Of a stretch of DNA of 64,000 bases, positions 13,138 through 62,149 are shown in pieces. The translations under genes were made by a program, and so were the position numbers. The stretch lies in contig NZ_JBAJII010000003.1 in assembly GCF_036867195.1 (NCBI RefSeq), forward strand, positions 1 through 64,000, in the 5' to 3' direction. Below the pieces are notes generated by a model. It made no database searches. It saw only the letters and a list, made by a program, of their open reading frames with translations, and had not been told where the DNA came from. Every line of letters starts with the position of its first letter. The first letter of the stretch is position 1. This DNA is from Arthrobacter sp. Soc17.1.1.1. Its GTDB lineage: Bacteria; Actinomycetota; Actinomycetes; Actinomycetales; Micrococcaceae.

Positions 13138-13206
13138 ACACACATCATCCGGTCTCACATTCGGTCTCTCAATCGGTCTCAGTTCAAACGCAGGGGTTAG
13201 GAAGGC

Positions 13207-14334
13207 ATGGCAGGGGGGAAAGCCATCGGGTGCGGCATCGCCGCGCTCACCCTCGCGCCCATCGGCGCGGTCGTGGCCATGACCATGCTCGTCGCCGGCA
13301 TAGCCGAGGACGAGGAAGCCAACCAGCTCGAACGAGCATCCTGCACCGTGTCCGCAGACACTCCCGGAGATGCGGGCGCGACGCCGGGTGCCCTGCAGGC
13401 TGTCCCCAACGGGTGGGGGCCCTTGGTCGACGCGGCGGCGAAGGAAGCAGGGCTTCCGGCCAGCGTTGTTGCCGCGCAGCTGAATCAGGAATCCGGGTGG
13501 AACGAGAACGCCACCAGTCCTGTCGGAGCGCAGGGCGTCGCCCAGTTCATGCCCGCAACGTGGGCGAGTTATGGCAACGGAGGCGACCCGTTCTCCGCGA
13601 AGGACGCCATTCCCGCCTACGGCCGGTACATGGCCGCGCTGAAGGGTGAAGTGCAGTCGATCGCAGGCAGTGATGCGAATCTGCTCGTGCAGCTCACCCT
13701 CGCCGCGTATAATGCCGGCCCGGGAGCCGTGCAGCAGTACAAGGGGATCCCGCCGTACCAGGAGACGCAGAAGTACGTCAGCTCCATCCTGGACTCCGCG
13801 CAGGGCGGGTTCTCCATGGACTGCAAGGCACCGACCGGTGGCAAGCCGTGGGACGGCGACCTCGGAGACGGCGAGTGGACCACTCCCCTGCCCGGAGGCG
13901 TCTTCACCTCCGGCTACGGGAAGCGCAACGTCATCGGCCTGCCTGCGTGGGCGCAGGATCACGTCGGCGTGGACATCTCGAGCCCCGGCGCCGGCTTCGG
14001 CAACGGCGGACCCGTCGTCGCGCCCACAGACTTGCGCGTCACCGGGTTCAATGACAAGGACGGGTGTGTGATCGCCAAGGAGGACGGCGACGATCCGGAC
14101 TTCGGGTTCGCGTTCTGCCATCTCAACGCCTACTCCGTGAAGGTGGGCGACAAGCTCGAACGCGGCGACATCGTCGGCACCGAGGGCAACAAGGCCGACC
14201 TCGGCAGCGTTCCTACACATCTACATTTCGAGATTTATACACCCGAAGCACCAGACGTCACCTTCCCGTACGAGGGCTTCAACATCGACCCCGAACCGAT
14301 CCTCAAAGAGAAAGGCGCGTGGCCATCATCATGA
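13207..14334 (+). CDS. lytic transglycosylase-M23 peptidase fusion (VirB1-like)
   Basis: A 375-residue cell-wall hydrolase. An N-terminal membrane anchor (about residues 8-32) precedes an SLT domain with the catalytic Glu in AAQLNQESGWNENATS, the GVAQFMPATWASYG motif and LAAYNAGPGAVQQY. An M23/LytM domain follows with the Zn ligands in DHVGVDIS and THLHFEIY. The bifunctional enzyme should cut glycan strands and peptide cross-links to open a path for the mating channel, the role of VirB1 or TcpG/Orf14-type proteins in Gram-positive plasmids. An AGGAAGG ribosome site precedes the ATG. All catalytic residues appear present. Confidence 0.9.
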   Translation: MAGGKAIGCGIAALTLAPIGAVVAMTMLVAGIAEDEEANQLERASCTVSADTPGDAGATPGALQAVPNGWGPLVDAAAKEAGLPASVVAAQLNQESGWNENATSPVGAQGVAQFMPATWASYGNGGDPFSAKDAIPAYGRYMAALKGEVQSIAGSDANLLVQLTLAAYNAGPGAVQQYKGIPPYQETQKYVSSILDSAQGGFSMDCKAPTGGKPWDGDLGDGEWTTPLPGGVFTSGYGKRNVIGLPAWAQDHVGVDISSPGAGFGNGGPVVAPTDLRVTGFNDKDGCVIAKEDGDDPDFGFAFCHLNAYSVKVGDKLERGDIVGTEGNKADLGSVPTHLHFEIYTPEAPDVTFPYEGFNIDPEPILKEKGAWPSS

Positions 14335-14990
14335 CCCCGACCTCCACGCACCACCGACCCACACGCCGGCACCTGCGCCAGTCACGCCACACGGTGGCTG
14401 CTCTGTGCCTGGTGGCACTGCCCCTGACGCTTTCAGCCGTCGCCTGCAGCAACAACGAGGGCCAAGCAGGGTCAACACCTGAGCCGACGCCCACGACCAT
14501 CTACGAGGGCTCCTACACGACGGCGGCCGCCGACGAGATAGCCGGCAACGGCACCTTCACCACGCCAGAGGACGCCGACCGGACCGACGTCGACTCCACG
14601 GCCGAGGTCGCCGCACTCATGCTGCACTCGTGGGACACGACGACCGATACCACCCAAACGGCCGCCGCCATCCGGGCAATTCCACTGATGAGCAATGAGT
14701 GGGCCTCCAACCAGGTTGAACCCGAGCGCAACGGTGCACAAGGTGAATGGCTGAAGCCATCAGAGCACCAGGCATACAGCGCACCCTCGATCGTCCCCGC
14801 CCCTGGCGACGTCTCCGAAGATGTGGCCGATGACAAGGCCATCCGTGCCTACGACGTCAGCTGGCGGTGGATCAGCCGCAACGGCACCGACCTCACAACC
14901 ACCGGCCGACAGATCGTCACGATCTACCTCGAAAAGCACGACAACCAGTGGGACGTCGTAGGCCACCAGTTCCAGAACATGGGCCTGTGA
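14331..14990 (+). CDS. lipoprotein of the transfer operon
   Basis: About 219 residues. A basic N-terminus with a hydrophobic stretch (VAALCLVALPLTLSAVAC) ends in a Cys that could be lipidated. Then comes an acidic Thr-rich domain with a conserved-looking C-terminus (AYDVSWRWISRNGTDLTTTG; IVTIYLEKHDNQWDVVGHQF) reminiscent of small outer domains attached to mating channels. The ATG overlaps the hydrolase stop (ATGA); a GTG 12 bases earlier is an alternative. Function unknown; secretion and operon position suggest a cell-envelope component of conjugation. Confidence 0.65.
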   Translation: MTPTSTHHRPTRRHLRQSRHTVAALCLVALPLTLSAVACSNNEGQAGSTPEPTPTTIYEGSYTTAAADEIAGNGTFTTPEDADRTDVDSTAEVAALMLHSWDTTTDTTQTAAAIRAIPLMSNEWASNQVEPERNGAQGEWLKPSEHQAYSAPSIVPAPGDVSEDVADDKAIRAYDVSWRWISRNGTDLTTTGRQIVTIYLEKHDNQWDVVGHQFQNMGL

Positions 14991-17424: not shown

Positions 17425-18018
17425 ATGAAAGTCGCCCTCGTGAATCTCAAAGGTGGAGTAGCGAAAACCACCAGTTCGATCTACATCGCGGCTGCGCTAG
17501 CCCGAAAAGGTACCGTCGTACTCCTCGACGGCGACCCCCAGGGATCTGCCTCAGACTGGACAGGCTTGGTCGAGGACAGCGGCGAGCCGATGCCTTTCAC
17601 TGTGAAAGTCGTCAATCAACGCACCATGAAAAAAGCTGCCCAAGGCTTTGACTACGGCGTGATTGACACTCCCCCGGGCAACCCACAAGTCATCGACGCG
17701 GCCATCGCCACCGCAGACATCGTCGTGATTCCCACCGATGCGTCAGCCATGGACATTCAGCGGGTCTGGCCCTCAATCGAAGCAGCCGCACGAGCAGGCA
17801 AGCCGGCGGCCGTGCTTATCGTCCGTGCGCGTCTGAACACCAGAAGTCTCGCCATCGCTGTCGAAACCTTTGAGCAAGCTGGAGCGGCTGTCATCGACGC
17901 CTACATTCCCTTGCGCGAGGACATAAAAAACGCCTACGGCACCATCCCAACCAACCTGCACGGCTACGACCAAGTAGCGACCGACCTACTGGAGGTACAC
18001 CATGGCATCGCCAGCTAA
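17425..18018 (+). CDS. parA: small ParA partition ATPase (type Ib)
   Basis: A 197-residue Walker-type ATPase without an N-terminal DNA-binding extension. Deviant Walker A is KGGVAKTTSS at residue 9, switch II is DGDPQGSASDW, and the DTPPGNP and VVIPTDASAMD motifs follow. Short ParAs of this class pair with a small ribbon-helix-helix ParB and move plasmids along the nucleoid. The next gene overlaps its end by 17 bases and has the expected size. Expression is probably autoregulated through the motif before the start. Confidence 0.9.
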   Translation: MKVALVNLKGGVAKTTSSIYIAAALARKGTVVLLDGDPQGSASDWTGLVEDSGEPMPFTVKVVNQRTMKKAAQGFDYGVIDTPPGNPQVIDAAIATADIVVIPTDASAMDIQRVWPSIEAAARAGKPAAVLIVRARLNTRSLAIAVETFEQAGAAVIDAYIPLREDIKNAYGTIPTNLHGYDQVATDLLEVHHGIAS

Positions 18019-26087: not shown

Positions 26088-26695
26088 TGCGTTCCCGCAG
26101 ACGTAGCCTTCATCACATGCTTTCCCATCCCACCCCCTTTCACTAGACACCGCCCCTGCCCAAGCGCGAGGGCGGTGCAGTCCCGGAAAGTGGAGACAGA
26201 CCGATTCTACTGTGCAGATCGGATGATTTGGGGCGTGGTCACTTCCAAACTTGGACAAATTTCGCAGACGCAAGTTGGACAGAGAAAATTCGGCATCACG
26301 CTTGCCTTTTTTGCCTTGATCTGCTTTAGGCAGGGTAGGCAACATGGCGGCTGGCGGCTGGCGGCGGGTGAGGGTTTATCCGTCGAAGTGGGTGCAGGGG
26401 GGGTGCCTGTCCGATGGATGTAACAACTTTCGCGGCGACGGCGTTGAGTTTCATGTTCCGGCGGCTGGAGGCGGCTTTGAGGATGGTCATGGCCGTGTTG
26501 TGGCTGCACCGGTTCTGAACCATCGATCTCGTCGGTGTGCCGGTGTCCACGTTCCCGCCGCCAAGATTCAAAACCCGGAGGTTCACCTCGCGGAGTTGGT
26601 GCTCCTCGGCCCGAAACATAACTCGGGCCCCTAGTATTTACAGGGAATCGGCTGGCTGCACGGTGAATTTCATCTGCACAGGAATCGGGGGTCTC

Positions 26696-28990
26696 GTGGG
26701 TTTTTTGAGTTGGTTGCGGTCTTTATCGGGTGAAGCTGAGCGTCCGAAGGTGTTCTCATCCCCGGAGGCGCCGCCGGCTGTGGATCGCCCTCTTGCGGTA
26801 CGCCGTGCATCGAATGCCCCTCCCGCACCCCAGAAGTCCAGCCGTGTTTCGGGTAAGGCGCGCTGGTATGGGTACGGCGAGGCGGCACGGGTCGGCGATT
26901 ACCTGATCTCGGGTGGATTGATTTATGTCGGTTCAGTCCTGCCCTCTCCCAAGGGTGGCACGGAACCGTCCCTGATTAATCCCGCACTGAGGATTAATTC
27001 GCAGAACCCGGACTGGGCAGGGCAATCCCTGGACTACTGGCCTTCGTACGAATCCATCGCCCCGGCGGCGCGGGCCGCGTACCTCACTTGGCAGGCGGAT
27101 GGACGGCGGTACCCTGAAGTGCCGATCGGCTATGTGTTCCTGTTCATGTACGGGCTTGAGCGGCGAGTCCTCATGGATATCGCTAAGGACCCTTCCCTGG
27201 CAGGTGAGCTGGTCCCGATCAGGGCTGAGATGCTCTCCTTGATCGAACTGCACGGTGACCGCAGCGATTCCTTTTCCGGGTATGCGTCCCGATTCCTGGA
27301 ACTCATCGACTTCATTTTGATGCAGGCCCCCGCATCGGCGGAATGGGAACCGCCGGCCTTGACCGAGTCGCGGTGGCTGGTTCCGATCAGTCTCAGGGTC
27401 GGGCTGGGCGACCTGGCAGCGGACGGCAAACCGATTCCTGCGCAGTGGGCTCTGGCTTGGGCGTGGTTCCACCCCGACATCCCGGTGCGAACGCCTGCCT
27501 CCCGGTGCACCGAGGAGTTCACCCGGCTTTTCACTCTCAGGTACCGGCAGAAGTTCGCGGATGGGTTTATCGTGCGCCCGGGCAAGACCACAATTAAAAC
27601 CAGCTATTACACGGCCAGTTCCCAGATCGGCCAGGCCAATCTGGAAATGGACAACATCCCGGATGTGTTCGCCCAGCAGGCACCGCTTAGGAAGCTCGCG
27701 GCACTCTTTGACAGTGTGACCGCTGAGCTGGAAGCCTACAGCCGGTGGCTCGGGCGCAACCCGGACAAGGCAGGAACCCTGGCCGCCGCCGCGCTTTTGC
27801 CGGGGGACCTGATCGACAGCAGTACCGGGGCCGTCCGGGACTTTCAAAACTGGTTGATGGAAAAACTAATACCTTCGGGGACTGCGCTGATCTCCGGAGC
27901 AGAGCTGTTCAACCACTGGCCCGCCGGTGTAACCGGCAAACTCAGCAAGCCCGAAACCGTTAATCTCGCGACCCTGCTGGACAGTTTGGGTGCCGCTCTG
28001 GAGCCCGATGTCCGCTTCGGGGGCGCTGCGGTCAGCGAGCTGACTCCAGTCGTGATCTTCCGGGTTCAACCCGGTAGCCCACACTCTCCAACCCCTGCCT
28101 ACAGCACCGCCCTGACGATGATGCACCTGGCTGCTGCGGTGACCGCCGCCGACGGCCATATCCTGCCGGCCGAACTTGATCACCTCACCGCTCATCTGGA
28201 ATCATCCCTGCAGTTGACCACGCCCGAACGCACCCGGCTCCGGGCGCATCTGCAGTGGCTTGGTGCCACCGGTGTGAAACTGACTGGACTGACCAAACGC
28301 TTGGAGAGCCTTTCGGGTGCACAGAAGGCCGCGGTGGGCGACATGCTCGTCACTGTCGCCGCAGCCGACGGACACATCGCACCGGCCGAAGTTACAACCT
28401 TGCAAAAAATCTACAAACTGCTGGGCCTGGAAGCATCAACGGTCTCCAGCAGGCTTCACGCCGCCCTGACGGGCTCCCTCGCTCCCGCTGGGGGGCCTGT
28501 GACGGTCCGACCCGCCGGAGAGCCGGAACCTGGCTACCCCATTCCCGTACCTCCGACCGCCGCCCCGGCCGAAACCGGCTTCGTGCTGGACCCGACGGTC
28601 ATTCAAGCCAAGATGAGCGAAACGGCTGCAGTGTCAGCCCTGCTGAGCGGAATCTTCGACGAGGACCAAGCCCCGCCCACCCCGGGGCAGGGCGAACCGG
28701 AATGGCCGCAACAGCCCGGACCCAAGGAGCCAGCCGGGACCGGCTCTGGCGCTGCCTCCTCAGTGGCAGGCCTCGATCAAGCACACTCCTCGATGCTGCA
28801 CGCTCTGGCAGGACGCAACCAGTTGGACCGCAACGAGTTCGACGACCTGGCCGCCCACCATGGGCTGCTGCCGGACGGGGCTTTGGACACGCTGAACGAA
28901 GCAGCCCTTGACGCCTCCGATGAACCTCTCATCGAAGGCGATGAGATCCTCACCATCAATGCCTACGCTCTGAAGGAGCTTCGCTCATGA
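26696..28990 (+). CDS. TerB_N-TerB-TerB_C protein of a three-gene defence operon
   Basis: About 764 residues from the GTG following GGGGG; the frame is open to 26537 without a better start. TerB_N (about residues 55-200) shows WYGYGEAARVGDYLISGGLI, YVGSVLP and IGYVFLFMYGLERR. A TerB helical domain (about 470-580) has two internal repeats with the conserved AADGHILPAE and AADGHIAPAE motifs (Asp/Glu metal-binding type). TerB_C (about 630-764) carries LLPDGALDTLNEAALD. The family was originally linked to tellurite resistance and is predicted to be a Ca2+/metal-dependent scaffold; with the two following genes a DNA-processing defence role is likely. ATGA overlap with the next gene. Confidence 0.85.
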   Translation: MGFLSWLRSLSGEAERPKVFSSPEAPPAVDRPLAVRRASNAPPAPQKSSRVSGKARWYGYGEAARVGDYLISGGLIYVGSVLPSPKGGTEPSLINPALRINSQNPDWAGQSLDYWPSYESIAPAARAAYLTWQADGRRYPEVPIGYVFLFMYGLERRVLMDIAKDPSLAGELVPIRAEMLSLIELHGDRSDSFSGYASRFLELIDFILMQAPASAEWEPPALTESRWLVPISLRVGLGDLAADGKPIPAQWALAWAWFHPDIPVRTPASRCTEEFTRLFTLRYRQKFADGFIVRPGKTTIKTSYYTASSQIGQANLEMDNIPDVFAQQAPLRKLAALFDSVTAELEAYSRWLGRNPDKAGTLAAAALLPGDLIDSSTGAVRDFQNWLMEKLIPSGTALISGAELFNHWPAGVTGKLSKPETVNLATLLDSLGAALEPDVRFGGAAVSELTPVVIFRVQPGSPHSPTPAYSTALTMMHLAAAVTAADGHILPAELDHLTAHLESSLQLTTPERTRLRAHLQWLGATGVKLTGLTKRLESLSGAQKAAVGDMLVTVAAADGHIAPAEVTTLQKIYKLLGLEASTVSSRLHAALTGSLAPAGGPVTVRPAGEPEPGYPIPVPPTAAPAETGFVLDPTVIQAKMSETAAVSALLSGIFDEDQAPPTPGQGEPEWPQQPGPKEPAGTGSGAASSVAGLDQAHSSMLHALAGRNQLDRNEFDDLAAHHGLLPDGALDTLNEAALDASDEPLIEGDEILTINAYALKELRS

Positions 28991-30396
28991 CCGGTCCCTC
29001 CGCTGCCGCCATCCGCCCCCGTGAACGGGACGCGCTGCTGCAGTCCCTGCGTGCAGGCGTGGTCCCGCGGATGGGTCAGCAGCATGTTCAGGTGGGCCGG
29101 GTCAACGAAGTGCAGGCGCTGCTGTCGGACATTAACCGCATCAATGACGGCGGATCCGGCAGCCGCTTCATCATCGGCGACTACGGCTCCGGGAAAACCT
29201 TCTTTCTGCACCTGATCCGCTCGATTGCCCTGCAGCAAAAACTCGTCACGGTCCACGCCGATCTCTCACCGGACCGGCGCCTGCAGGCCACCGGTGGGCA
29301 GGCCAGAAGCCTGTACGCCGAACTGATGCGCAACATGTCCACCCGAGCCAAGGCCGACGGCGGCGCCATGTCCAGCGTGGTGGAACGCTTCGTCACGCAG
29401 GCCCTTACAGAGTCCCGGGCCTCCGGCGAGGCCGTGGAAACCATCATCCGCCGCAACCTCGATCAGCTTTCCGAACTCACCGGCGGATACGACTTCGCCG
29501 AAGTGATCGCCAAATACTGGCAAGGACACGACACCGGGAATGAACAGCTCAAGGCCGACGCCGTTCGGTGGCTGCGCGGAGAATTCACCACCCGCACCGA
29601 TGCGCGCGCCGCCCTGGGCGTGCGAACCATCGTGGATGACTCCAACTTCTATGACCAGCTCAAGCTGCTGGCCCTGTTCGTCCGTCTTGCCGGTTTCGGA
29701 GGTGTCCTGGTCTGCCTCGACGAAATGGTGAACCTGTACAAGCTGGCCAACAGCCAAGCCCGCAATTCCAACTACGAACAGATCCTCCGGATCCTCAATG
29801 ACTCCACCCAGGGCACCGCATCCGGTCTGGGCTTCGTTTTCGGCGGTACGCCCGACTTCCTCCTGGATCCGCGCCGTGGCCTCTACTCATACGCTGCACT
29901 GCAGTCCCGGCTGGAGGAAAACAGTTACGCCGTCGACGGGCTCGTGGACTACTCCGGGCCCGTGCTGCGCCTGACCAGCCTGACCCCGGAAGACTTCTAT
30001 GTCCTGCTGACCAAGCTCCGGCACGTCCAGGCCGGAGGGGAGGAATCGGCGTATCTCATCCCCGATGAAGGAATCACCGCCTACATGCATCACTGCGCCC
30101 AGCGCATTGGTGACGCCTATTTCCGCACCCCCCGCAACACCATCAAGAGCTTCCTGGACCTGCTCGCGGTACTGGAACAAAACCCCGGGCGGCAATGGGA
30201 AGACCTTCTCGTGGGAGTAAAACTCGAACACGAGTCCAACCCCGACCTCGCCCCCCTGGCACCCGCGGAGCCGACGCCACACCCCACGACGCCCACGCAG
30301 ACCGTAGAGACAGCGGCCAATTCAGGGTCCGGCACTCCACAAGGCAATTCGCTGGCTGACAGGGACGATGACGAACTGTCCGCCTTCAGGCTGTGA
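28987..30396 (+). CDS. BrxD-like (DUF2791) P-loop ATPase
   Basis: A 469-residue AAA-type ATPase: Walker A FIIGDYGSGKTFFLHLIRSI near residue 62-72, Walker B GVLVCLDEMVNLYKL near 245, the sensor-like GLGFVFGGTPDFLLDPRRGL, and a C-terminal RTPRNTIKSFLDLLAVLEQN that resembles the BREX ATP-binding (BrxD/DUF2791) family. The last 50 residues are a Pro/Thr/Asp-rich linker. In BREX type 2 and 3 systems this ATPase is encoded with an Lhr-like helicase, as here, but no PglX methyltransferase, PglZ or BrxC is present in this window. Starts inside the TerB gene stop. Confidence 0.85.
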   Translation: MTGPSAAAIRPRERDALLQSLRAGVVPRMGQQHVQVGRVNEVQALLSDINRINDGGSGSRFIIGDYGSGKTFFLHLIRSIALQQKLVTVHADLSPDRRLQATGGQARSLYAELMRNMSTRAKADGGAMSSVVERFVTQALTESRASGEAVETIIRRNLDQLSELTGGYDFAEVIAKYWQGHDTGNEQLKADAVRWLRGEFTTRTDARAALGVRTIVDDSNFYDQLKLLALFVRLAGFGGVLVCLDEMVNLYKLANSQARNSNYEQILRILNDSTQGTASGLGFVFGGTPDFLLDPRRGLYSYAALQSRLEENSYAVDGLVDYSGPVLRLTSLTPEDFYVLLTKLRHVQAGGEESAYLIPDEGITAYMHHCAQRIGDAYFRTPRNTIKSFLDLLAVLEQNPGRQWEDLLVGVKLEHESNPDLAPLAPAEPTPHPTTPTQTVETAANSGSGTPQGNSLADRDDDELSAFRL

Positions 30397-30400
30397 GTTC

Positions 30401-33337
30401 ATGAGCGATCCCGCCGCCGCGTTCGAAAGGCTGCACCGCCGTGTCCAGACCTGGATCTGGGAACAGAAATGGCAGCAGCTGCGGCCCGCTCAGGCCCAAG
30501 CAGTGGATCCCATCCTGGCCGCTGACACGGACGTCATTATCAGCGCCGCAACCGCCAGCGGGAAGACCGAAGCCGCCTGGTTGCCGATCCTCTCGGCCCT
30601 GGCCAGCGCAGCTGAGAACGGGCCCGTGCCCGCAGGGGTCAAGGCTCTCTACATTTCACCGCTGAAGGCCCTGATCAATGACCAGTACGAACGTCTCAGC
30701 AACCTCGCGGAACACGTCGAAGTCCCAGTACACCGCCGACACGGAGACGTCACCGGGGCGGCCCGCAAAACCCTCAGGGAATCACCCGACGGGCTGCTCC
30801 TGATCACCCCGGAATCGCTCGAAGCACTCTTCATCACTCAAGGCACCCGCATCCCGGCACTGCTGCACGGGCTGCAGTACATCGTGGTCGATGAATTGCA
30901 CTCCTTCATCGGAACCGAACGCGGGGCGCAGCTGCAGTCCCTGCTCCACCGGGTGGAATTGGCGGTTCGCCGGAAAGTTCCGCGCATAGGTCTCTCCGCT
31001 ACGCTCTCGGACCTGTCCGTGGCCGCGGACTTCCTCCGGCCGGACCGGGCCCTGCCGGTGTGCCTGATCGGTGGAACGGACGATGATCGTGCGGAGCTGC
31101 GCATGCAACTGCGCGGCTACCTTACCGCCGGCACCGGCCCTGATCCGGAAGCTTCCTCCCCGGGGGACGAGGAGGAAACGCAGAGCGACATCGATAAACG
31201 CGCGATAGCCGAACATCTCTTCCGTAACCTCCGCGGCCGGGACAATCTGGTCTTCGCCAACTCACGCGCCAATGTGGAAACCTATGCCGATCTTCTCCAA
31301 GAGATCAGTGAACACAACCGGGTAGCCAACGAGTTCTTCCCCCACCACGGGAACCTGTCCAAGGAATTCCGCGAAGATGTCGAATCCAAGCTTCGGAGGA
31401 CCGAAACCCCAGCAACGGCCATCTGCACCTCTACTCTGGAGATGGGCATCGACATCGGATCGGCCGACACGGTCGCGCAGATAGGGTCTCCCGGCAGTGT
31501 CTCCGCCCTGCGCCAGCGGCTGGGCCGATCGGGACGGCGAAACGGTCCGGCGACCCTGCGCCTCTACGTGTCCGAACAGCCTCTGAACGAACGAACGCCG
31601 CCGGTGGATCAGCTGCGTACAGGAACCTTCGAAACCCTCGCGATCGTTGAACTGCTGCTCGAGAAATGGTACGAGCCCCCCAACACCTCCGGTCTGCACC
31701 TCTCCACCCTGATCCAACAAGTCCTGTCCGTGATAGCCCAGCATGGAGGCGCCCAAGCGGCCGAACTTTTCAGTGCCCTCTGCCAGGCTGGGCCGTTCCG
31801 GCATGTTGACCAAGGCATGTTCATCCAACTGCTCCGAACCTTGGGCAGCAAGGGGATCCTCACGCAGGCCTCGGACGGGACCCTGCTGCCGGGGCGAATC
31901 GGTGAGCGGTTGGTGAACCACTACAGCTTTTACAGCGCGTTCCAAACCGCCGAGGAATACCGCCTCGTGGCCTCGGGCCGGACCCTTGGATCCATTCCCA
32001 TCGACCACCCGGTCACCGAAGGCAGCCTGCTCATTTTTGCAGGACGACGTTGGCGGGTCCTAGATGTGGACCTCGCCGGCAAAGTCATCAATCTCGCCAA
32101 GGCATCGGGCGGAAGACCTCCCACGTTTACGGGGGCGGGAGCGCGAATCGCCGACGGCATCCGCCGACGTATGCAGCGGCTCTATGAAAATGACACGGTG
32201 CCTGCTTACCTCGATCACACCGGCCGGCTCTTCGCTTCCCAAGGGCGCGAAGCCTACAGGCGCCTAGGTCTGCACCACCGGGCGATACTCCCCTGGGGCG
32301 ATGACACGCTCCTCTTCCCATGGGCCGGGGACCGGATCATGAACACCCTCCATGTCCTGCTCTCCAGTGAAGGCATCGCGGCCAGCCAGGACGGGGTCGC
32401 TCTGAACTGCCGGAAAATCTCCCCCGCCGAACTCGCCGGTCTTCTCCACCAACTAGCAGCATCCGAGCAACCGACCCCCACCGGACTCGCCCAGACCGTA
32501 CTGGTTAAAACCCAGGACAAACACGACGTCCACCTGAATGATGACCTGCTCACCCACTCCTACGCCGCCAGCTCACTGGACATACCGGGAGCATGGTCCA
32601 CCCTGCAACGACTCGCTCAAATCGACCCCGACATACCCTCGGGCGAAAAACGCACCGGGCCTGCCAAACTCTTCCGGCCATCATCACCGGGGCTCCCGGT
32701 CGTGCCTGGGAAGACTCCCTTCGCGGTAATCGACGTCGAAACCACCGGATTCTCCCCACACAGGCACCGCGTCGTTGAGATCACGATCATCCGGCTGAAT
32801 GCTGAAGGCGTGCGAGAGGGCAGCTGGACCACCCTCATCAACCCCTACCAACCCACCGGGCCCAGTCATATCCACGGCATAACCTCCGCAGACATCGCCG
32901 ACGCTCCCGGCTTCGCCGACGTGCTGAATGAGATCGCCGCACAGCTCTCAGGTGCCGTTGTTGTTGCCCACAACGCCGCCTTCGACTTGAGCTTCCTGAC
33001 AGCAGAATTCGAGCGGGCTGGCCTCACAGCACCGGCATGGCCGGTGCTGTGCACCATGCAGCTCAGCCGATACTTTCAACCCGGCGTCCCTGTCACTCTT
33101 GCTGCGGTATGCCAGCGGCTGGGAATCGATACCGGCAACGCGCACACCGCTTCTGCCGATGCGGCTGCTGCAGCAGAAATACTGCGGACCTACCTCCAGC
33201 AGATAGCGGACGAGAACCGGCACCTGTTCCAACCTAAGCCAGCAATCCTCCCTAATGCATGGAGCGACGAACGGGGTAGTGGAGGCTTAAGCCACCCGGG
33301 GAAACCGCGTGAAGACCAGCAGCACATCCTCTTTTGA
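30401..33337 (+). CDS. Lhr-like superfamily II helicase fused to a DEDDh exonuclease
   Basis: About 978 residues. The helicase domain has ATASGKTEAAWLPIL near residue 50, DELHSF near 163, SATLSDL near 200 and the C-terminal lobe LEMGIDIGSADTVAQIGSPG then RQRLGRSGRR near 350-385; an Lhr-like winged helix and core follow. The last 210 residues are a DnaQ-type exonuclease with FAVIDVETTGF (DxE), HNAAFDLSFL and HTASADAAAAAEI (H and last D). All four acidic residues and the His are intact. The product should unwind and trim DNA. The ATG lies four bases after the ATPase stop; 11 codons upstream are open. Confidence 0.88.
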   Translation: MSDPAAAFERLHRRVQTWIWEQKWQQLRPAQAQAVDPILAADTDVIISAATASGKTEAAWLPILSALASAAENGPVPAGVKALYISPLKALINDQYERLSNLAEHVEVPVHRRHGDVTGAARKTLRESPDGLLLITPESLEALFITQGTRIPALLHGLQYIVVDELHSFIGTERGAQLQSLLHRVELAVRRKVPRIGLSATLSDLSVAADFLRPDRALPVCLIGGTDDDRAELRMQLRGYLTAGTGPDPEASSPGDEEETQSDIDKRAIAEHLFRNLRGRDNLVFANSRANVETYADLLQEISEHNRVANEFFPHHGNLSKEFREDVESKLRRTETPATAICTSTLEMGIDIGSADTVAQIGSPGSVSALRQRLGRSGRRNGPATLRLYVSEQPLNERTPPVDQLRTGTFETLAIVELLLEKWYEPPNTSGLHLSTLIQQVLSVIAQHGGAQAAELFSALCQAGPFRHVDQGMFIQLLRTLGSKGILTQASDGTLLPGRIGERLVNHYSFYSAFQTAEEYRLVASGRTLGSIPIDHPVTEGSLLIFAGRRWRVLDVDLAGKVINLAKASGGRPPTFTGAGARIADGIRRRMQRLYENDTVPAYLDHTGRLFASQGREAYRRLGLHHRAILPWGDDTLLFPWAGDRIMNTLHVLLSSEGIAASQDGVALNCRKISPAELAGLLHQLAASEQPTPTGLAQTVLVKTQDKHDVHLNDDLLTHSYAASSLDIPGAWSTLQRLAQIDPDIPSGEKRTGPAKLFRPSSPGLPVVPGKTPFAVIDVETTGFSPHRHRVVEITIIRLNAEGVREGSWTTLINPYQPTGPSHIHGITSADIADAPGFADVLNEIAAQLSGAVVVAHNAAFDLSFLTAEFERAGLTAPAWPVLCTMQLSRYFQPGVPVTLAAVCQRLGIDTGNAHTASADAAAAAEILRTYLQQIADENRHLFQPKPAILPNAWSDERGSGGLSHPGKPREDQQHILF

Positions 33338-33508: not shown

Positions 33509-33613
33509 GTCAGTCTCGCCAGCGGTCATTCCCGAACGATAGCTGACACGAGTCTATGGGTGTCGGTACATTGCAGAAATGGAGCGGGGCCACCACTGCA
33601 GTATGCTCAATTG

Positions 33614-34438
33614 ATGAAAATTGGAGAGCGAATAGTTGGACTTGACCATGCCGTGACGACTGGACGGTATGCTTCATGGCATTTTGATGAGCTGGAGCTT
33701 CGTGCCTTCCTGCTGACGAGTGCGAAAGGTATGAGTGCCTGGTTCAAGTCAAAGGAGGAGGAAGCCGAGCGCGAGGTGCGGGGCTGTAGCGAACCAGACA
33801 TTCACCAAGGTCCTGAGGCATACGACCACTTTATGGACGAGACAGGTATCTTCTGGGATCAGTACTGGCAGCAGCTGGCCGCGGCCGTGATCAAGGATGC
33901 CTTCACTCTCTTCGAGGTGTTCCTCGAGGAGTCGGCGCATGATCTGCTCCGCCGGTATGGATCCGGGCTAAAGAAGCTTTCCACCGAGGGAACATGGCTG
34001 CTCCAGCAGTGCAACGACTTTTACAGGGACTACTTGGGCGTCACTATCACAACGTCTGAGATTGATGACATCCAATGGATCCGGAACAAGCTGTCGCACC
34101 TTCGAAATTCCTTCCGAACAGTAGAGGGGAAAGGTGAGTTCGCCCAGAAGGTCGCGGCTCTCGGTATCCGCGGTGCAGAGACCAAGGACGAGGAGTGGTG
34201 GGGTCTTCCCAACCAGGAACACGACGGAAGTTCGCTGATGACGGGCTCCCTCGTGCTCACTCCTTTGGAGTCATGGCGCATCCTTGACATCATCAGGAAG
34301 AAGATAGAGGCACTCACCTTGGTGTTTCATGGCATCCAGTACGGATCCAACACGACGCCCGCCTTAAACGATCTGAGGGCAGGCAGAACCGTTCAGAGGA
34401 AGCGTGATGAGAAGCTTTTGTCCGTTCCGGTGCCGTAG
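33614..34438 (+). CDS. HEPN-motif hypothetical protein 1
   Basis: About 274 residues, mostly helical, with no membrane segment. Residues 157-162 read RNKLSH inside IDDIQWIRNKLSHLRNSF, which matches the RX4-6H signature of HEPN ribonucleases. The earlier segment IKDAFTLFEVFLEESAHDLL is a plausible partner helix. The ATG at 33614 is chosen over an upstream start because the preceding 18 codons look non-coding. It lies between two defence loci. A toxin or abortive-infection RNase is a reasonable reading, but the family is not otherwise recognised. Confidence 0.6.
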   Translation: MKIGERIVGLDHAVTTGRYASWHFDELELRAFLLTSAKGMSAWFKSKEEEAEREVRGCSEPDIHQGPEAYDHFMDETGIFWDQYWQQLAAAVIKDAFTLFEVFLEESAHDLLRRYGSGLKKLSTEGTWLLQQCNDFYRDYLGVTITTSEIDDIQWIRNKLSHLRNSFRTVEGKGEFAQKVAALGIRGAETKDEEWWGLPNQEHDGSSLMTGSLVLTPLESWRILDIIRKKIEALTLVFHGIQYGSNTTPALNDLRAGRTVQRKRDEKLLSVPVP

Positions 34439-34648: not shown

Positions 34649-35398
34649 TTAGTTCGTGTCGTAGCTAGTGGAAGCGGTCAGAGGGGGAGAGTTGATAGTG
34701 GTCAGCCGCGTCGACATCGCCGCGCACCAAGCCAACCATTCCGGTGCTTCACCCCGAGGACGGCCTAGAAGATGTTCAAGCGCATCTACAGCTGCCATGT
34801 ACGCGTCGGTCGCATTCTCGACTGTGTAGGTCACAAACCTGCCTTCAAGTGCCACCCGGAACACCGGGTGACCCACCGGATCAACGAAGTCTGCCGAGGC
34901 GTGGACAGCCGCGTTTCGCAGCGCGAAAATTTGCTTTAGTGTGTTTTTAGTATTCGCGCTATTGGTGTTCGTGAGACGAAAAGCGCCGGTCCAAATCTGG
35001 TGATGACGAGCAGCCGCTGATGATTGACCGCCGTTGGATCTCACGATCGAAGGTCGTTGGACGTGGGGGTAACGCGCGACGACAGAGTTCGTGAAGGCTT
35101 CTAGCGTGAACGCAACTGCACAGATGCAAATCATGGCACTGCGGTACTCATGAAGGACAGCATTATCGAATTCCGAACCAGCATCGAGTCCCGGGTTGGC
35201 ATCGCGCGCATCGCGGGCCGATGCCAACTCCTCACGGGCGGTTATCAACCACTGAGGCCATACTTCCGACCGAACAGTCACTCTGCCCGGGTGCAAGGCA
35301 GCGTCGTCAGCGTTGTAGGCGAAACTGTCGAGTCGGATCTGGCCATCCTCGAGGAGCCTTACCCCAACTCCCCGGCTAGGCTCCCCTATGTTCTGCAT
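34649..35398 (-). CDS. HEPN-motif hypothetical protein 2
   Basis: A 249-residue protein. YRSAMICICAVAFTLEAFTN, then NTLKQIFALRNAAVHASADF: the LRNAAVH block (Arg161 to His166) is the classical RX4H HEPN motif and the first segment the expected preceding helix. The ribosome site GGAG is well placed. It lies 106 bases after the UvrD-like gene on the same strand, so it may be the third gene of the Gabija-like operon. Substrate unknown; similarity to protein 1 is limited to the motif. Confidence 0.6.
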   Translation of the reverse strand: MQNIGEPSRGVGVRLLEDGQIRLDSFAYNADDAALHPGRVTVRSEVWPQWLITAREELASARDARDANPGLDAGSEFDNAVLHEYRSAMICICAVAFTLEAFTNSVVARYPHVQRPSIVRSNGGQSSAAARHHQIWTGAFRLTNTNSANTKNTLKQIFALRNAAVHASADFVDPVGHPVFRVALEGRFVTYTVENATDAYMAAVDALEHLLGRPRGEAPEWLAWCAAMSTRLTTINSPPLTASTSYDTN

Positions 35399-35504: not shown

Positions 35505-37334
35505 TCATTCGAAAGCATCCACCCCTAATTGCTTTGTTAACTCGAGATACGGTGATGGAGTTGTAACCCTCTGGCCATACCGGGTCTTACGTCGAAGTGC
35601 CCTAGACAGAAGAAGTACCCTTCGGGCTCTAGTGACAGCAACATAGAAGATGCGCAGTTCACTCTCGCGCTCTTTTTGCGACTTTGCCCGAAAATCGGGG
35701 ATCTGGCCTTCGTTCAAACCGACAATCGCAACCGCACGAAACTCTCTTCCCTGAGCCTTATGTACTGTAAGAAGTTGAACACCCTGGGTAGCTGAACCTC
35801 GTTGCCGACGTGAGCAAAAAAGATGGAAGTCTGCCCAGGATCGAGATTCTCTATCTACAGATTCTAAGTATTCACTCCATGCGTTCTCTATTTCCGTAAG
35901 ATCAGCACTCCACGAAGCGAGCCCCGATGTACCTGAGTCACGTTCAGTAATGAGGCTAGACAAGCTCAGCATGAATTGCAGTAGATTAGTTTCGCTAACC
36001 AGATCTGCTAATGCATTAACGAGTGGATTAGTATGAGCGCGAAATACACTGGCGACCTGATCGCGGGATTTCAGGCTATCAGGATCCTCATCGATAAGTC
36101 TTGCCAACTGCCATTGTGGTGCTACACGTCGCTCGGCGGCATTCAAGGCGATTAACTCTAACACTACTTTGCCCGCTAAACCCTCGAGCCAATCTCCGGC
36201 GTCGCTACTCGTTGAATGAATGATATTTCGCGCTGCTAGCTCTTTCGAGATTTCTCGAAGAGCTGAAGCAGACCGACCCAAAATAGCGATTTCTTCTGCT
36301 CGAACTGTTGGCGATTCTCCATTGGCGAGGGCGGCCTTGGGTATTCCATTGAGTATCAATCCACTCACCCAATCGCCTAGTTGCCTCGCCTCGTCACTCT
36401 CATCCTCCCCGCAAACCAACTGGATATGTCCTCGTGCTGCGTGGGGTTGCACATGCGACTGCTGCTGACCAAGTTCGCTCGCAATAACGCTTGAGAACTC
36501 GCTTATTAGTGCCGCTGATCTGAAATTCACATCGAGCGCGATGACTTCTGCCTGGTACCTCTGTGCGAACTGGTGCATCAACGATGGGTCAGCTCCTGCG
36601 AAACTGATTATGGACTGCTTATCGTCCCCGACAAGCATCGCCGCGGGACCCTCACCCGCCTCTCCTAACATCATGGTGAGGAGCCGATATTGAGCTGGTG
36701 TCAGATTCTGTGCTTCATCGACCACGACGTGCGTGTACGTGCGCCCTAGTTGTCTGCGAACCGATTTCAGCGTAAGTAGTTCGCTAGCCGCGTCAAGAAG
36801 ACCCGGGTAGTCGAGAGCCGGAAGGCTGGCTAGCGCTCTACGCCAATCCTCCACCTCCGGACTTTCGATCAATCGTGCGCGGTCAAGATCGATGCGCCGG
36901 AGTTGCTCGAGGGGATCGTGAGCGGCCTCAAGGCCTTGACTGCCTAGCCACTGGCTGAACAGTTCAACTCGGTCCTCATCTCTCGACAGGATCTCCGGCT
37001 CGATAGGTAGTCCGATTCTTGTGGAATGCTGGCGAAGCAGTGAGTGCGCGAACCCGTGGATCGTTTCGGTTGTAACCCGCTCCGACTCAGCTCCAACACG
37101 CTTTCTGAATCGCTCAGCTAGCTCTTCCGCGCTTTTATTTGTATAAGACAAAGCAAGGACGCGCCCTAAACCCTGTTGCATAGTCAGCAATCGCTGTACT
37201 CGCCGCGCTAGCACCTCTGTCTTGCCGCTACCTGCGCCGGCTAGGACCACGATCGAACGCGCGTCTGAATCGATCGCTCTGTGCTGGAGAGAACTGAGGG
37301 AGACCTCGACACCATGGTCGTCAGATTGCATCAT
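35505..37334 (-). CDS. UvrD/Rep-type helicase, GajB-like
   Basis: About 609 residues with all superfamily I motifs: Q motif LSSLQHRAI, Walker A LAGAGSGKTEVLARRV, LSYTNKSAEELAERF, VVVDEAQNLT, LVGDDKQSI, VNFRSAALI, LLTVHKAQGREFRAVAIVGL and FYVAVTRARRVLLLS. It is coupled to the OLD-family nuclease, which overlaps its start; that pairing defines Gabija systems, where GajB is a UvrD-like helicase. It is longer than the reference GajB (about 500 residues). Local GC is much lower than in the plasmid backbone, so acquisition was probably recent. Two ATGs at 37334 and 37331 are possible starts. Confidence 0.8.
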   Translation of the reverse strand: MMQSDDHGVEVSLSSLQHRAIDSDARSIVVLAGAGSGKTEVLARRVQRLLTMQQGLGRVLALSYTNKSAEELAERFRKRVGAESERVTTETIHGFAHSLLRQHSTRIGLPIEPEILSRDEDRVELFSQWLGSQGLEAAHDPLEQLRRIDLDRARLIESPEVEDWRRALASLPALDYPGLLDAASELLTLKSVRRQLGRTYTHVVVDEAQNLTPAQYRLLTMMLGEAGEGPAAMLVGDDKQSIISFAGADPSLMHQFAQRYQAEVIALDVNFRSAALISEFSSVIASELGQQQSHVQPHAARGHIQLVCGEDESDEARQLGDWVSGLILNGIPKAALANGESPTVRAEEIAILGRSASALREISKELAARNIIHSTSSDAGDWLEGLAGKVVLELIALNAAERRVAPQWQLARLIDEDPDSLKSRDQVASVFRAHTNPLVNALADLVSETNLLQFMLSLSSLITERDSGTSGLASWSADLTEIENAWSEYLESVDRESRSWADFHLFCSRRQRGSATQGVQLLTVHKAQGREFRAVAIVGLNEGQIPDFRAKSQKERESELRIFYVAVTRARRVLLLSRALRRKTRYGQRVTTPSPYLELTKQLGVDAFE

Positions 37335-39159
37335 CAATTTTCCGAATCAGTTCTTGTAGTGGTGTCGGCCATGTTTGCCAGTCGTCGTACAACTCGATCA
37401 TAGATCGTGCAAGGAACGTGCCCGAACTTCCTTTGAGCTTTTTCATTTGGTTCAACGTGTTCCCCGACAAGCCGGGCTGGATGGCTTGACAGGCTGCCAA
37501 ACACATGTCTTGGTCAAACGTCATGAGCATAGATTCAATCGCCCCTGCCACAGGGCGACCCTCCCCGTCCATGCCATTGATCCAAATTACGTCAGGGGGC
37601 TTAACAGCATGAATACGCTGAAGCGACTGAACAGCAGTCGCTCCGTCCTGGTCACTATCTGCAAAAATAAAGCACGGCGTGTCTGTCATCACGGAGAACT
37701 TAACTGCGGCTGTAGCAAGCTCATTCGATAGACTTCCTGGGTCCACCACGGTGATACCGTGCGATTTTCCGCCAAGCGCGTGTCGGAGTGCAATGGGCAG
37801 GAAAGCTCGTTCGGTAGCTCCATCTCCAATCACTATGCAACTGGAGAAGAGAAGCTCCCCGAACGGCCGCTCGACCAGTCGTCGCAGCTTCTCCATCTCC
37901 TGTTTATGGAGACTCGGACGGAATGCGCGATGGACGGCCAACTCATCATCGGACGCTGGCCCAAGATCAACAATCTTGGTCGCGCTGCCTAGAGCCTGTA
38001 CTAGACGAATTGAAGAGGGATCAACCGATGTGACTAGGTGGGCGGAGTGAGTGCTTACGACTTTCTGCCCTCGCATGCCCACCAAAAGTTCGGCCAGCTC
38101 CATGGCTGCTTGAGGATGAAGGTGTGCCTCTGGTTCCTCAACAAGAGTAATGGGTGTAGGAGGAACGGCGCTTCCATCGCGACTCAATCGCCGCTCGTAG
38201 AGGATGCCCTGCACCTGTAGCGACGATAGGCTTCGAGATCCAGCGCCATGGAAGCGGATAGGAAGTGGCCCTGCGCCGGTGTCTAAGTCGATAGATATGA
38301 GCCTGCCTAGTTCCTCAAGGTTTGTTGGAAGGGGATTGAGGGCTGGAGATCCCACACTTCCAACAAGTGAGTGCAGTCTTGCTAGCTCTGCGTCGACTGA
38401 CTTCAACGTCTCACTGCCATCAAATATCTGCGAACTCAATTGACTAAGTTGTAACTCAAGGGACTCGCGATGGCTTTCTGGAATCTCGAGGTCTGAAAGC
38501 ACTTTCCGTATTATTGACCCTTGCCGACCTAGCTCGTCGCGTAAGTCCCGCCCTGTATTTATCAAATCCACGGCGAAGGCTCTCCGTTGCCTAGCCGATA
38601 GGGCTGTCGGCGATATTACTTGCACCCATTTACTACTCGTGGTGTCGAATGTTAGAAAATAAGAGTCCGATCGTGCTCCAGTTCCGTCCCCCGACCGAGA
38701 TATTCTAGTACGCCATGCTATCCGTTCGCGAATGGGTGTTTCACTCAACACCTGAGTTTTATTCTCAAACAGTTGCGTAAAACTCGGCTCGAACTCTTCA
38801 TCATCTCCTGGGTCGGCGGGAGAACCAGGGGAGACGATCACATCGATTTCCGGCAAGGATTCGTTTCCGACAGTGAAATCGTCGGTATCGGCGGACCGCC
38901 CGCCAAGAGCAACTTGTAGAGCGGAAATAATTCTGGATTTACCTGCATTGTTACGCCCGGCCAGCACCGTCACCCGTGGTTCTAGCTCAACCTCGCAGGA
39001 TGAGATTCCTCGGTAGTTTCGGATGATAATTTTCTCAATGTAAGGCCCGTTCGGACGAACAACATCCAATGGCCCGGCTGGCGTCGGGTTCATCCACCCA
39101 ACATAGCCGTTCGTGGCTACCCGCGTATTCATCAACGCTAGCTGTCTTGGCGGTGACAT
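37321..39159 (-). CDS. OLD-family ATPase-TOPRIM nuclease, GajA-like
   Basis: Up to 612 residues; in-frame ATGs at 39132 and 39093 are alternatives, and the conserved start is IEKIIIRNYRGISSCEVELE. The ABC-type ATPase has Walker A GRNNAGKSRII, a Walker B LVEEPEAHLHPQAAMELA and STHSAHLVTS. The TOPRIM nuclease (about residues 440-500) shows CIVIGDGATERAFLPIAL with its catalytic Glu and FIFADSDQDG with the DxD. OLD nucleases paired with UvrD helicases form Gabija, an anti-phage nicking system. Reference GajA is about 580 residues, in line with the shorter starts. Confidence 0.82.
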   Translation of the reverse strand: MSPPRQLALMNTRVATNGYVGWMNPTPAGPLDVVRPNGPYIEKIIIRNYRGISSCEVELEPRVTVLAGRNNAGKSRIISALQVALGGRSADTDDFTVGNESLPEIDVIVSPGSPADPGDDEEFEPSFTQLFENKTQVLSETPIRERIAWRTRISRSGDGTGARSDSYFLTFDTTSSKWVQVISPTALSARQRRAFAVDLINTGRDLRDELGRQGSIIRKVLSDLEIPESHRESLELQLSQLSSQIFDGSETLKSVDAELARLHSLVGSVGSPALNPLPTNLEELGRLISIDLDTGAGPLPIRFHGAGSRSLSSLQVQGILYERRLSRDGSAVPPTPITLVEEPEAHLHPQAAMELAELLVGMRGQKVVSTHSAHLVTSVDPSSIRLVQALGSATKIVDLGPASDDELAVHRAFRPSLHKQEMEKLRRLVERPFGELLFSSCIVIGDGATERAFLPIALRHALGGKSHGITVVDPGSLSNELATAAVKFSVMTDTPCFIFADSDQDGATAVQSLQRIHAVKPPDVIWINGMDGEGRPVAGAIESMLMTFDQDMCLAACQAIQPGLSGNTLNQMKKLKGSSGTFLARSMIELYDDWQTWPTPLQELIRKIDDAI

Positions 39160-42637: not shown

Positions 42638-44221
42638 CTAGACGCCGATGATGGTGAGCCAGCCGGCGAGGGCGAGGAGGGTGATGATCAGGACGGGGAT
42701 GGTGAGGACGATGCCGGTGCGGAAGTACTGGCCCCAGCCGATGTGGATGCCCTTGCGGTCCAGGACGTGCAGCCAGAGCAGAGTGGCGAGACTGCCGATC
42801 GGGGTGATCTTCGGGCCGAGGTCCGAGCCGATCACGTTGGCGTAGATCATCGCCTCCTGCGTCAGCCCTGTGGCCCCGGCTGCTCCGATGGCCAGCGAGG
42901 CGATCAGGACGGTGGGCATGTTATTCATCAACGACGCGAGGACGGCGACGATCACACCGACGCCCAGGGCCGTGATGAGGACTCCGTTGGTGCTGATGTT
43001 CGAGAACACGCCGGCGAGTTCGTCGGTGAGGCCCTGATTCCTGAGCCCGTAGACGACGAGGTACATGCCGATGGAGAACAGGACGATCTGCCAGGGGGCT
43101 TCCCGCAGGATCCGGGGTACCGAGATCCGACCGTTCGGGAGTGCCGCAGCTCCACCAGTTGAGAGGGACATTCCGTCGCTCGCGTCCGCGTCGGAGGTCT
43201 TCATATCGGCGGTGGAATGAGCGCTGCTCGCGGTGCCGCCGGTGGAGCGGTGAGCTGCGCCGACGGTTTCGTAGTCGAGGTCCGCTGCCCGATCATCAGC
43301 ATCAGCTGCAGGCGTCACCACCTGCTTTGTCGACGCTGTCACCGATGTGGTCACCGGTGCTGCCACTGAGGCTGCTACTGGGACTGCAGCCCGGGGGAAC
43401 AGGAACGCGGGTTTGCGGGACGCGACGAGCATGAGGACCACGGCGCCGAGGCCTGCCACAGCCGAGAGAGGAATGTTGAGTGGCTCGGCGGCGAAGTAGC
43501 CGATGAGCAGGACACCGAGGATCACCCATCCGGTCTTGAACGTCAGGGGGTCCGCAATAGCTGATTTCGGTGTTCCCAGAACGCTCATGTCATAGGTACG
43601 GGGGATGGCTTTCCTGAAGAACAGGAACAGGACCCCGAGGCTCGCGGCCACCGACACGATGCCGACGGGAACCATGACGACGGCGTAGCGCGCGAAGCTG
43701 ATGTCGAAGAAGTCGGCAGTGATGATGTTCACCAGGTTCGACACGACCAGGGGCAGGCTCCCGGCGTCGGCGATGAAACCACACGCGATCACGAACGCGA
43801 GGGACGCCTTGGCGGGGAACTTCAGGGCGATGAGCATCTGGATGACGATCGGCGTGAGGATCAGCGCCGCTCCGTCGTTCGCGAACACGGCCGCGATTGC
43901 GGCCCCGAGCAGCACGATCAGCGCGAACAGCAAACGCCCGTTGCCCCTGCCCCACCGGGCGACGTGCAGCGCCGCCCACGTGAAGAACCCCGACTCGTCC
44001 AGGATGAGGGAGATGATCACGATCGCGACGAACGCGAACGTCGCATTCCACACGATGTCCCACACCACCGGAATGTCGGACAGGCTCACCACCGTGGTCA
44101 GAAGCGCGAGGACCGCGCCGCCGAGGGCGGACCAGCCGATGCCGAGGCCTTTGGGTTGCCAGATGACCAGGGTCAGGGTGGCGAGGAAGATCAGAACAGC
44201 GACCACGGTCATGGCAGTCAT
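42638..44221 (-). CDS. arsB: arsenite efflux permease ArsB with enlarged central loop
   Basis: A 527-residue ion-transporter-superfamily permease. The N half has [20 protein letters not shown] and [20 protein letters not shown], the C half [20 protein letters not shown] and [20 protein letters not shown], all classical ArsB motifs. Normal ArsB is about 430 residues; here a hydrophilic insert of about 90 residues rich in Ala, Ser, Thr and Asp separates the two halves. It exports As(III) produced by the ArsC enzymes. AGGAG precedes the ATG. A strong terminator hairpin lies between it and the upstream arsC. Confidence 0.9.
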
Positions 44222-61624: not shown

Positions 61625-62149
61625 TCAGGGTGCTGGGAGGAGGGTGCGTGACCGGGCCCGGGACGGGCCGGGTCCGGGCACGCACCCGGCTTGTGGGGTC
61701 CGTCGCCGCGTCTTCAGCGGCCTGCCCAACCTGCCTAAACCTGCCCGGTTGGCCCGGTGTGCCTGGTCTGCCTGGCCTGCCTGGTGTGGTGGGGGCGGCG
61801 TGTAGATGACGGGGTGGCCGCCTCGGTACCATTCGGTGATTCCGCCGGCGACGTTGACGGTGGCGTAGCCGCCGCTGGTGAGCATCCGGGCGGCCTGGCT
61901 GCTGCGCTTACCGGAGCCGCACAGCAGATACACCGCGGTGTCGGGTAGGTCGGGTAGGTCGGTGAGGCGGGAGGGCAGTTCCTCGAGTGGGATGTTGAGG
62001 CTGCCGGGGATGAAGGCCGTGGAATACTCCTGCCTGCTCCGGACATCCACCAGTGCGACACCGGGCCAGAGTTCAGCCAGGCTGTCGGCCGTGATCGCGC
62101 GCAACGGCCCGGGGGCCAAGCCCCTGTCAGGCGTTGTGTGGTGTGGCAT
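61625..62149 (-). CDS. rhodanese-domain sulfurtransferase with repetitive tail
   Basis: A 174-residue protein. Rhodanese domain (residues 15-115) with VALVDVRSRQEYSTAFIPGS, LNIPLEELP and active-site loop LLCGSGKRSSQAARMLTSGG. The C-terminal 55 residues (HQAGQADQAHRANRAGLGRL onward) are basic and low-complexity, from CCTGCCTGG-type repeats, and have no homologue that I recognise. It overlaps the thioredoxin gene by 23 bases. A sulfur carrier in the persulfide pathway. Confidence 0.85.
   Translation of the reverse strand: MPHHTTPDRGLAPGPLRAITADSLAELWPGVALVDVRSRQEYSTAFIPGSLNIPLEELPSRLTDLPDLPDTAVYLLCGSGKRSSQAARMLTSGGYATVNVAGGITEWYRGGHPVIYTPPPPHQAGQADQAHRANRAGLGRLGRPLKTRRRTPQAGCVPGPGPSRARSRTLLPAP

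Follow-up and report, generated by a model that had tools for sequence, protein, structure and literature searches.

What does a closely packed cluster of three genes, encoding a TerB protein, an ATPase and a helicase that ends in an exonuclease domain, do on a plasmid-like contig of Arthrobacter sp. Soc17.1.1.1? The cluster lies in the first 64,000 bases of contig NZ_JBAJII010000003.1 (forward strand; hereafter the window), and a first-pass annotation had taken it for a candidate undescribed, stand-alone defence system acting on DNA. It is almost certainly a copy of Shango (sngABC), an anti-phage system that has already been named, and the exonuclease fused to its helicase SngC may be a new part of this otherwise known system.

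The locus as a copy of Shango

The Shango model of PADLOC is the top match for each of the three proteins, with SngA matching the TerB protein (8.8e-94), SngB the ATPase (5.4e-179, 593.9 bits, profile positions 4-426 of 439) and SngC the helicase (6.2e-272, 902.6 bits, profile positions 4-718 of 720, residues 17-747 of a frame of 989 amino acids (aa)). An SngA-type TerB gene, an adjacent SngB ATPase gene and an adjacent SngC helicase gene on the same strand, which together define Shango, are all found (Table 1). The protein database lists SngC in its 978-aa form, the 989-aa frame being that of a mechanical list of open reading frames (ORFs) that starts 33 bases earlier, at 30368; for sngA the first possible start codon further upstream in its open frame is at 26537. 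The coordinates bear out the operon and its junctions as first annotated, with an ATGA overlap between sngA and sngB and the ATG of sngC, at 30401, four bases past the sngB stop.

The domain calls were upheld by Pfam, with SngA matching TerB_N (4e-51), TerB (5.8e-13) and TerB_C (2e-25), all three above the Pfam cut-offs, SngB matching BrxC_BrxD (PF10923, formerly DUF2791, 2.5e-150), and SngC matching DEAD (5.8e-32), Helicase_C (7e-16) and RNase_T/DEDDh (5.7e-24) within a single ORF. SngB has a Walker A region (G64, G67, G69, K70) and a Walker B region (D245, E246), and among solved structures SngC matches 5v9x, an 'ATP-dependent DNA helicase' (3.7e-28).

Table 1. Features of the operon and of its surroundings in the window
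Feature	Position	Strand	Remarks
Three-gene cluster sngA, sngB, sngC	26696-33337	+	
5' leader	26618-26695	+	78 bases before sngA start; conserved with operon; presumed promoter and ribosome-binding region
sngA	26696-28990	+	TerB_N-TerB-TerB_C protein, 764 aa; start GTG at 26696
TerB_N domain	26876-27499	+	
TerB domain	28112-28441	+	
TerB_C domain	28559-28984	+	
sngB	28987-30396	+	BrxC/BrxD-family AAA+ ATPase, PF10923, 469 aa
sngC	30401-33337	+	Lhr/BrxHI-like superfamily 2 (SF2) helicase with C-terminal DEDDh exonuclease, 978 aa
DEDDh 3'-5' exonuclease domain of sngC	32711-33220	+	residues ~771-940 of 978-aa form; Pfam RNase_T
ORF between Shango and Gabija-like pair	33560-34438	+	292 aa
ORF between Shango and Gabija-like pair	34649-35398	-	249 aa
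Gabija-like pair	35505-39159	-	3' of operon, pointing towards Shango; context, outside Shango
gajB-like	35505-37337	-	PADLOC GajB, 317.4 bits
gajA-like	37321-39159	-	PADLOC GajA, 248.3 bits
TraD/TraG-type coupling protein	2539-4581		
Transglycosylase/M23 protein	13207-14334		
ParA-type ATPase	17425-18018		
ArsB-type arsenical pump	42638-44221	-	
P-type (E1-E2) ATPase	55444-57648	-	
tRNA-Leu	61665-61745	-	anticodon aag

The Shango of E. coli is said to have been reported in Millman 2022. PMC10250203 describes Shango as made up of three genes, whose products have TerB, helicase and ATPase domains, and reports that the operon of Pseudomonas aeruginosa PA14, when placed in PAO1, changed plating 10-100-fold with many phages, though not all, and gave generally strong protection in liquid culture; it also notes that Shango had recently been identified in immune islands of E. 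coli, where the effect was modest, 10-fold, and concerned two phages. The Arthrobacter operon shares the TerB protein, ATPase and DEAD/DEAH helicase genes of the canonical sets (PA14 cDHS1 and the E. coli islands), but differs from them in an SngC of 978 aa against a profile of 720 positions, the extra C-terminal part being the DEDDh exonuclease, and in its place on a plasmid-like contig. A match to a named system, which the annotation had set as a refuting condition, is what PADLOC returned and, with the published literature on Shango, it rules out an undescribed system; what stands of the earlier proposal is the three-gene operon, the domain calls, the separation from BREX and, probably, a defence acting on DNA, which for the Arthrobacter copy is a prediction drawn from its membership of Shango.

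Conservation of the triad

When SngB was aligned against named genomes 573 relatives were found, of which the best 80, a set biased to near relatives of the Arthrobacter SngB, were examined as loci. Gene order is conserved and the three genes are contiguous in 74 of the 80, across nine named phyla, where contiguous means gaps of less than 300 bases from domain to ORF and where some of the 74 loci are interrupted by contig ends. In five of the others one gene was undetected, two of these having a contig end no more than 130 bases from sngB; in the last one sngA is 1.5 kb away. By phylum the loci fall into Pseudomonadota (44), Actinomycetota (17), Cyanobacteriota (5) and six more phyla (12 together), with 2 unassigned. 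The distribution is patchy: SngA matched in 4 of 97 relatives, one match being weak (2.7e-8), and a sample of 296 genomes from across the phylum gave 12, the genome itself being counted in both.

The comparison with a copy from the same genus (L016) gives the limits of the conserved unit. The two share a single block of DNA, 26618-33296, with 90.6% identity, that starts at the 5' edge of the leader and breaks off 41 bases short of the sngC stop; upstream of it there are scattered short matches only, and downstream no similarity was found in the 2.8 kb available in L016. Taken with this shared block, the gene order common to 74 of 80 loci indicates that the triad is held together beyond chance, and the operon thus behaves as a cassette of three genes preceded by a leader of 78 bases. 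A scan of the leader with the sigma-70 consensus returned no site.

A DEDDh exonuclease fused to SngC

The SngC profile of PADLOC stops at residue 747 of the 989-aa frame and the DEDDh domain follows it, at residues ~783-950. All five catalytic residues are there (D778, E780, D862, H915 and D920 in the 978-aa numbering), so the domain is predicted to be a 3'-5' exonuclease with a full catalytic set. Among the best 120 of 7,989 matches to SngC in the protein database the domain is found in 104, of which 98 have the complete catalytic set, while the other 16, which are 740-794 aa long, do not have it. An artefact of one assembly is ruled out by its presence in so many database proteins, and likewise by a copy on the Arthrobacter crystallopoietes plasmid pLDW-10. 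In the 80 named loci the fusion is present in 6 of 17 Actinomycetota and in none of the 63 others, and the 6 may be an undercount because 4 of the 17 actinobacterial SngC ORFs end less than 300 bases from a contig end.

The history of the fusion was followed in a tree of 119 SngC rows, made with a quick method and having long branches; it took in the loci whose alignment covered 600 residues or more, together with all 16 top matches that lack the fusion and every fifth one of the 104 that have it. A single branch of 57 rows (Shimodaira-Hasegawa-like approximate likelihood ratio test (SH-aLRT) 96) contains all 30 fused rows, and the fused or unfused state changes 8 times, at least 6 of these changes being forced by well-supported branches, so the DEDDh domain appears to have been gained or lost repeatedly within this branch. 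Between the window and L016 the ratio of non-synonymous to synonymous substitution (dN/dS) of the domain is 0.147, close to that of the remainder of SngC (0.09 for residues 1-430, 0.131 for residues 431-745), and that of the linker (25 codons) is 0.63. In this one usable pair the domain is under purifying selection, a second pair (L114) being saturated for the DEDDh domain.

The top DEDDh-type model for the domain in PADLOC is the candidate PDC-S48 (229.6 bits, among 25 of 54 matches listed), but this is a candidate of PADLOC-DB whose model does not include the SngC helicase. In a genome of the same order (L018) a separate DEDDh protein at 13039-14919 (+ strand) matches PDC-S48; a divergent Shango-like set is about 2 kb away from it, and the protein may be related to the source from which the fused domain came. 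A literature search of limited depth found no description of a DEDDh fusion of Shango, and Anantharaman 2012, on Ter systems, may already cover the partnership of TerB with helicases and exonucleases.

A second fusion in Rhodobacter-type SngC

On a plasmid of Rhodobacter xanthinilyticus (L115) genes for a TerB protein and an ATPase are accompanied by an open frame of 928 aa with a helicase and a C-terminal DEDDh domain, of which the record annotates just the 3' part, as an 'exonuclease domain-containing protein'. With these Rhodobacter fusions the idea that the fusion is confined to Actinomycetota was dropped. Among the best 120 matches to this SngC the exonuclease domain is present in 7 and absent in 113 (precomputed Pfam). 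In a helicase tree of 54 rows the Rhodobacter-type proteins form a branch of 26 rows (SH-aLRT 100) separate from the actinobacterial ones, and the fused rows among them fall within a sub-branch of 10, two of which are unfused, one of these being named 'partial'. The Rhodobacter-type DEDDh domains cluster with two DEDDh domains encoded elsewhere in the Arthrobacter genome and not with those of actinobacterial SngC (support 99/97), in a tree that has four comparison domains and long branches and that lacks L110, another RNase_T site in this genome, which the domain search did not recover. A tree that holds all SngC-fused DEDDh domains together is disfavoured by the approximately unbiased (AU) test, with a p value of 0.009 that is not clean as the tested group was picked after an earlier, cruder tree. 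It is therefore likely, if not proven, that the Rhodobacter fusion is a second, independent capture of a DEDDh domain.

Tentatively, the C-terminus of SngC might serve Shango as an effector slot that has taken up DEDDh domains from different sources at least twice, in the actinobacterial and Rhodobacter branches, giving a helicase-exonuclease subtype that would destroy, and not only remodel, the invading DNA. Carried by plasmid-like elements, such a subtype could act in conflicts with phages and with rival plasmids. A natural fusion of helicase and exonuclease that was apparently captured twice suggests that SngC presents the 3' ends of its target DNA, and the fused SngC offers point mutants that would separate unwinding from degradation.

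Proposed mechanism and alternatives

No established mechanism for Shango was found in a literature search of limited depth. SngB is modelled as an ORC/TnsC-like AAA+ protein, its match to the ORC/Cdc6/TnsC-type fold spanning both ATPase and lid. The last ~75 residues of SngA are modelled as winged-helix-like, with weak matches, and VIA-align of SngA gave 2h5n and winged-helix rows; a nuclease fold in SngA is disfavoured, Foldseek giving no match of any kind at E 0.001 or better, in a search that barely covered the other parts of SngA. The metal-dependent scaffold role that the annotation gave to the TerB protein is putative.

The reading we favour, as more likely than not, is that the Arthrobacter operon is a Shango variant in which SngB and SngA load the fused SngC, which unwinds invading DNA while its exonuclease trims 3' ends. 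SngB would assemble on invading DNA that is replicating or has free ends, SngA, with its TerB domains and possible winged helix, would be the adaptor that links recognition to loading, and SngC would be loaded onto the DNA and then unwind it. The fused DEDDh domain would then trim the exposed 3' ends, leaving phage DNA damaged or replication intermediates unusable; in unfused Shango this nuclease step may be absent or supplied by host exonucleases. We infer loading, the adaptor role, the choice of target and degradation largely by analogy: the loading of SngC by SngB is proposed because BrxD, classed as an ORC-Cdc6 AAA+ protein, may load or activate BrxHI according to PMC12839542, and trimming of 3' ends is proposed because in MrfAB the helicase MrfA has the exonuclease MrfB as its partner (PMC12458937).

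The main rival, which is less likely but deserves weight, is that Shango works without degrading DNA, with SngB and SngC remodelling or stalling phage replication or blocking circularisation, and with the exonuclease as an accessory that widens the range or tidies ends. It arises because most copies seen outside Actinomycetota have no exonuclease, and it gains from the absence of the fusion in all 63 non-actinobacterial named loci and from Druantia III, which is reported to block the circularisation and replication of phage DNA (PMC13316683). An unfused sngC might instead be followed by a conserved nuclease gene, and this was looked for in 40 loci with a same-strand ORF of at least 100 aa that starts -40 to +250 bases from the sngC end, picked by a heuristic without a gene finder. 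No common nuclease family was found among the 33 ORFs of at least 120 aa that were scanned, which again suits remodelling. The top Pfam family among them is the ion-channel domain PF00520, in 3 of 33, and another 3 match SngC, being pieces of interrupted sngC genes. Against a purely accessory exonuclease are the catalytic residues kept in 98 of 104 fused proteins, the purifying selection on the domain in the single usable pair and its apparent double capture, which together argue that exonuclease activity matters where the domain is present.

It is improbable that the operon is instead a module for DNA repair or replicon maintenance that serves its own element and not phage defence. The plasmid-like contig would suit such a module, as would the likeness to MrfAB, in which an SF2 helicase (YprA-family) also acts with a 3'-5' exonuclease. 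MrfAB is not known to include a TerB protein or an ORC-type ATPase. Its helicase and exonuclease are separate proteins and it functions in DNA repair (PMC12458937), so the comparison is one of working alike only, and a repair role is opposed by the patchy distribution of the operon among relatives and across the phylum, by the Gabija-like genes close by and by the blocking of phages by canonical Shango (PMC10250203).

A reduced BREX type 2 locus, with BrxD and BrxHI but without methyltransferase and PglZ, can be set aside as scarcely credible, since the homology of SngB and SngC to BrxD (132.2 bits, 7.1e-39) and BrxHI (384.7 bits, 2e-115) in PADLOC is far outscored by the Shango models, SngB reaches 129.6 bits with NCBIfam BrxD (NF033438) against a cut-off of 350, the first gene encodes a TerB protein, and a search of the whole 4.2-Mb assembly (98.79% complete) for PglZ (PF08665) was negative, while it matched in 2 of 14 control genomes. 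The annotation had likewise kept the locus apart from BREX. What BREX type 2 does share is the pairing of an ORC-type ATPase with an SF2 helicase, for which helicase loading has been proposed (PMC12839542), and SngC has been placed with BrxHI, DruE and DpdJ in a potentially distinct clade (PMC12278908).

Genomic context

The contig, of 125,547 bases, looks like a plasmid, with genes for a coupling protein, a transglycosylase and a ParA-type ATPase (Table 1) and a backbone that, outside Shango, is similar to an Arthrobacter sp. MN05-02 plasmid (85.6% over 18% of a 24-kb query), though the tRNA-Leu gene weighs against this reading. Shango and the Gabija-like pair together have the predicted make-up of a defence island. 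The two ORFs between them had no match in Pfam, PADLOC or NCBIfam and could be further defence genes. The arsenical pump and the P-type ATPase are on the same contig.

Shango-like sets elsewhere

Within the same phylum the genomes L019-L028 hold a deep branch of Shango, with SngB at ~426-442 bits and SngC at ~520-810 bits against the models of this analysis, some of them cut, in which SngA was picked up by PADLOC and missed by the SngA model of this analysis. In several of these loci SngB and SngC are separated by 2.5-7 kb that contain other genes, including a MAD3/MAD8-like one. A plasmid collection holds 698 records with an SngC-like match, a count of such matches and not of Shango triads, of which 462 are from Klebsiella and 144 from Salmonella and 553 are typed as conjugative; on one Salmonella plasmid (L116) SngC is spread over several frames and looks broken. 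The halophilic archaeon DL31 has a Shango-like triad on its plasmid phalar01 (L117), and after it, in the same orientation, come genes for a metallophosphoesterase, an SMC protein and a NurA-domain protein, which from their predicted domains resemble a set for DNA-end resection.
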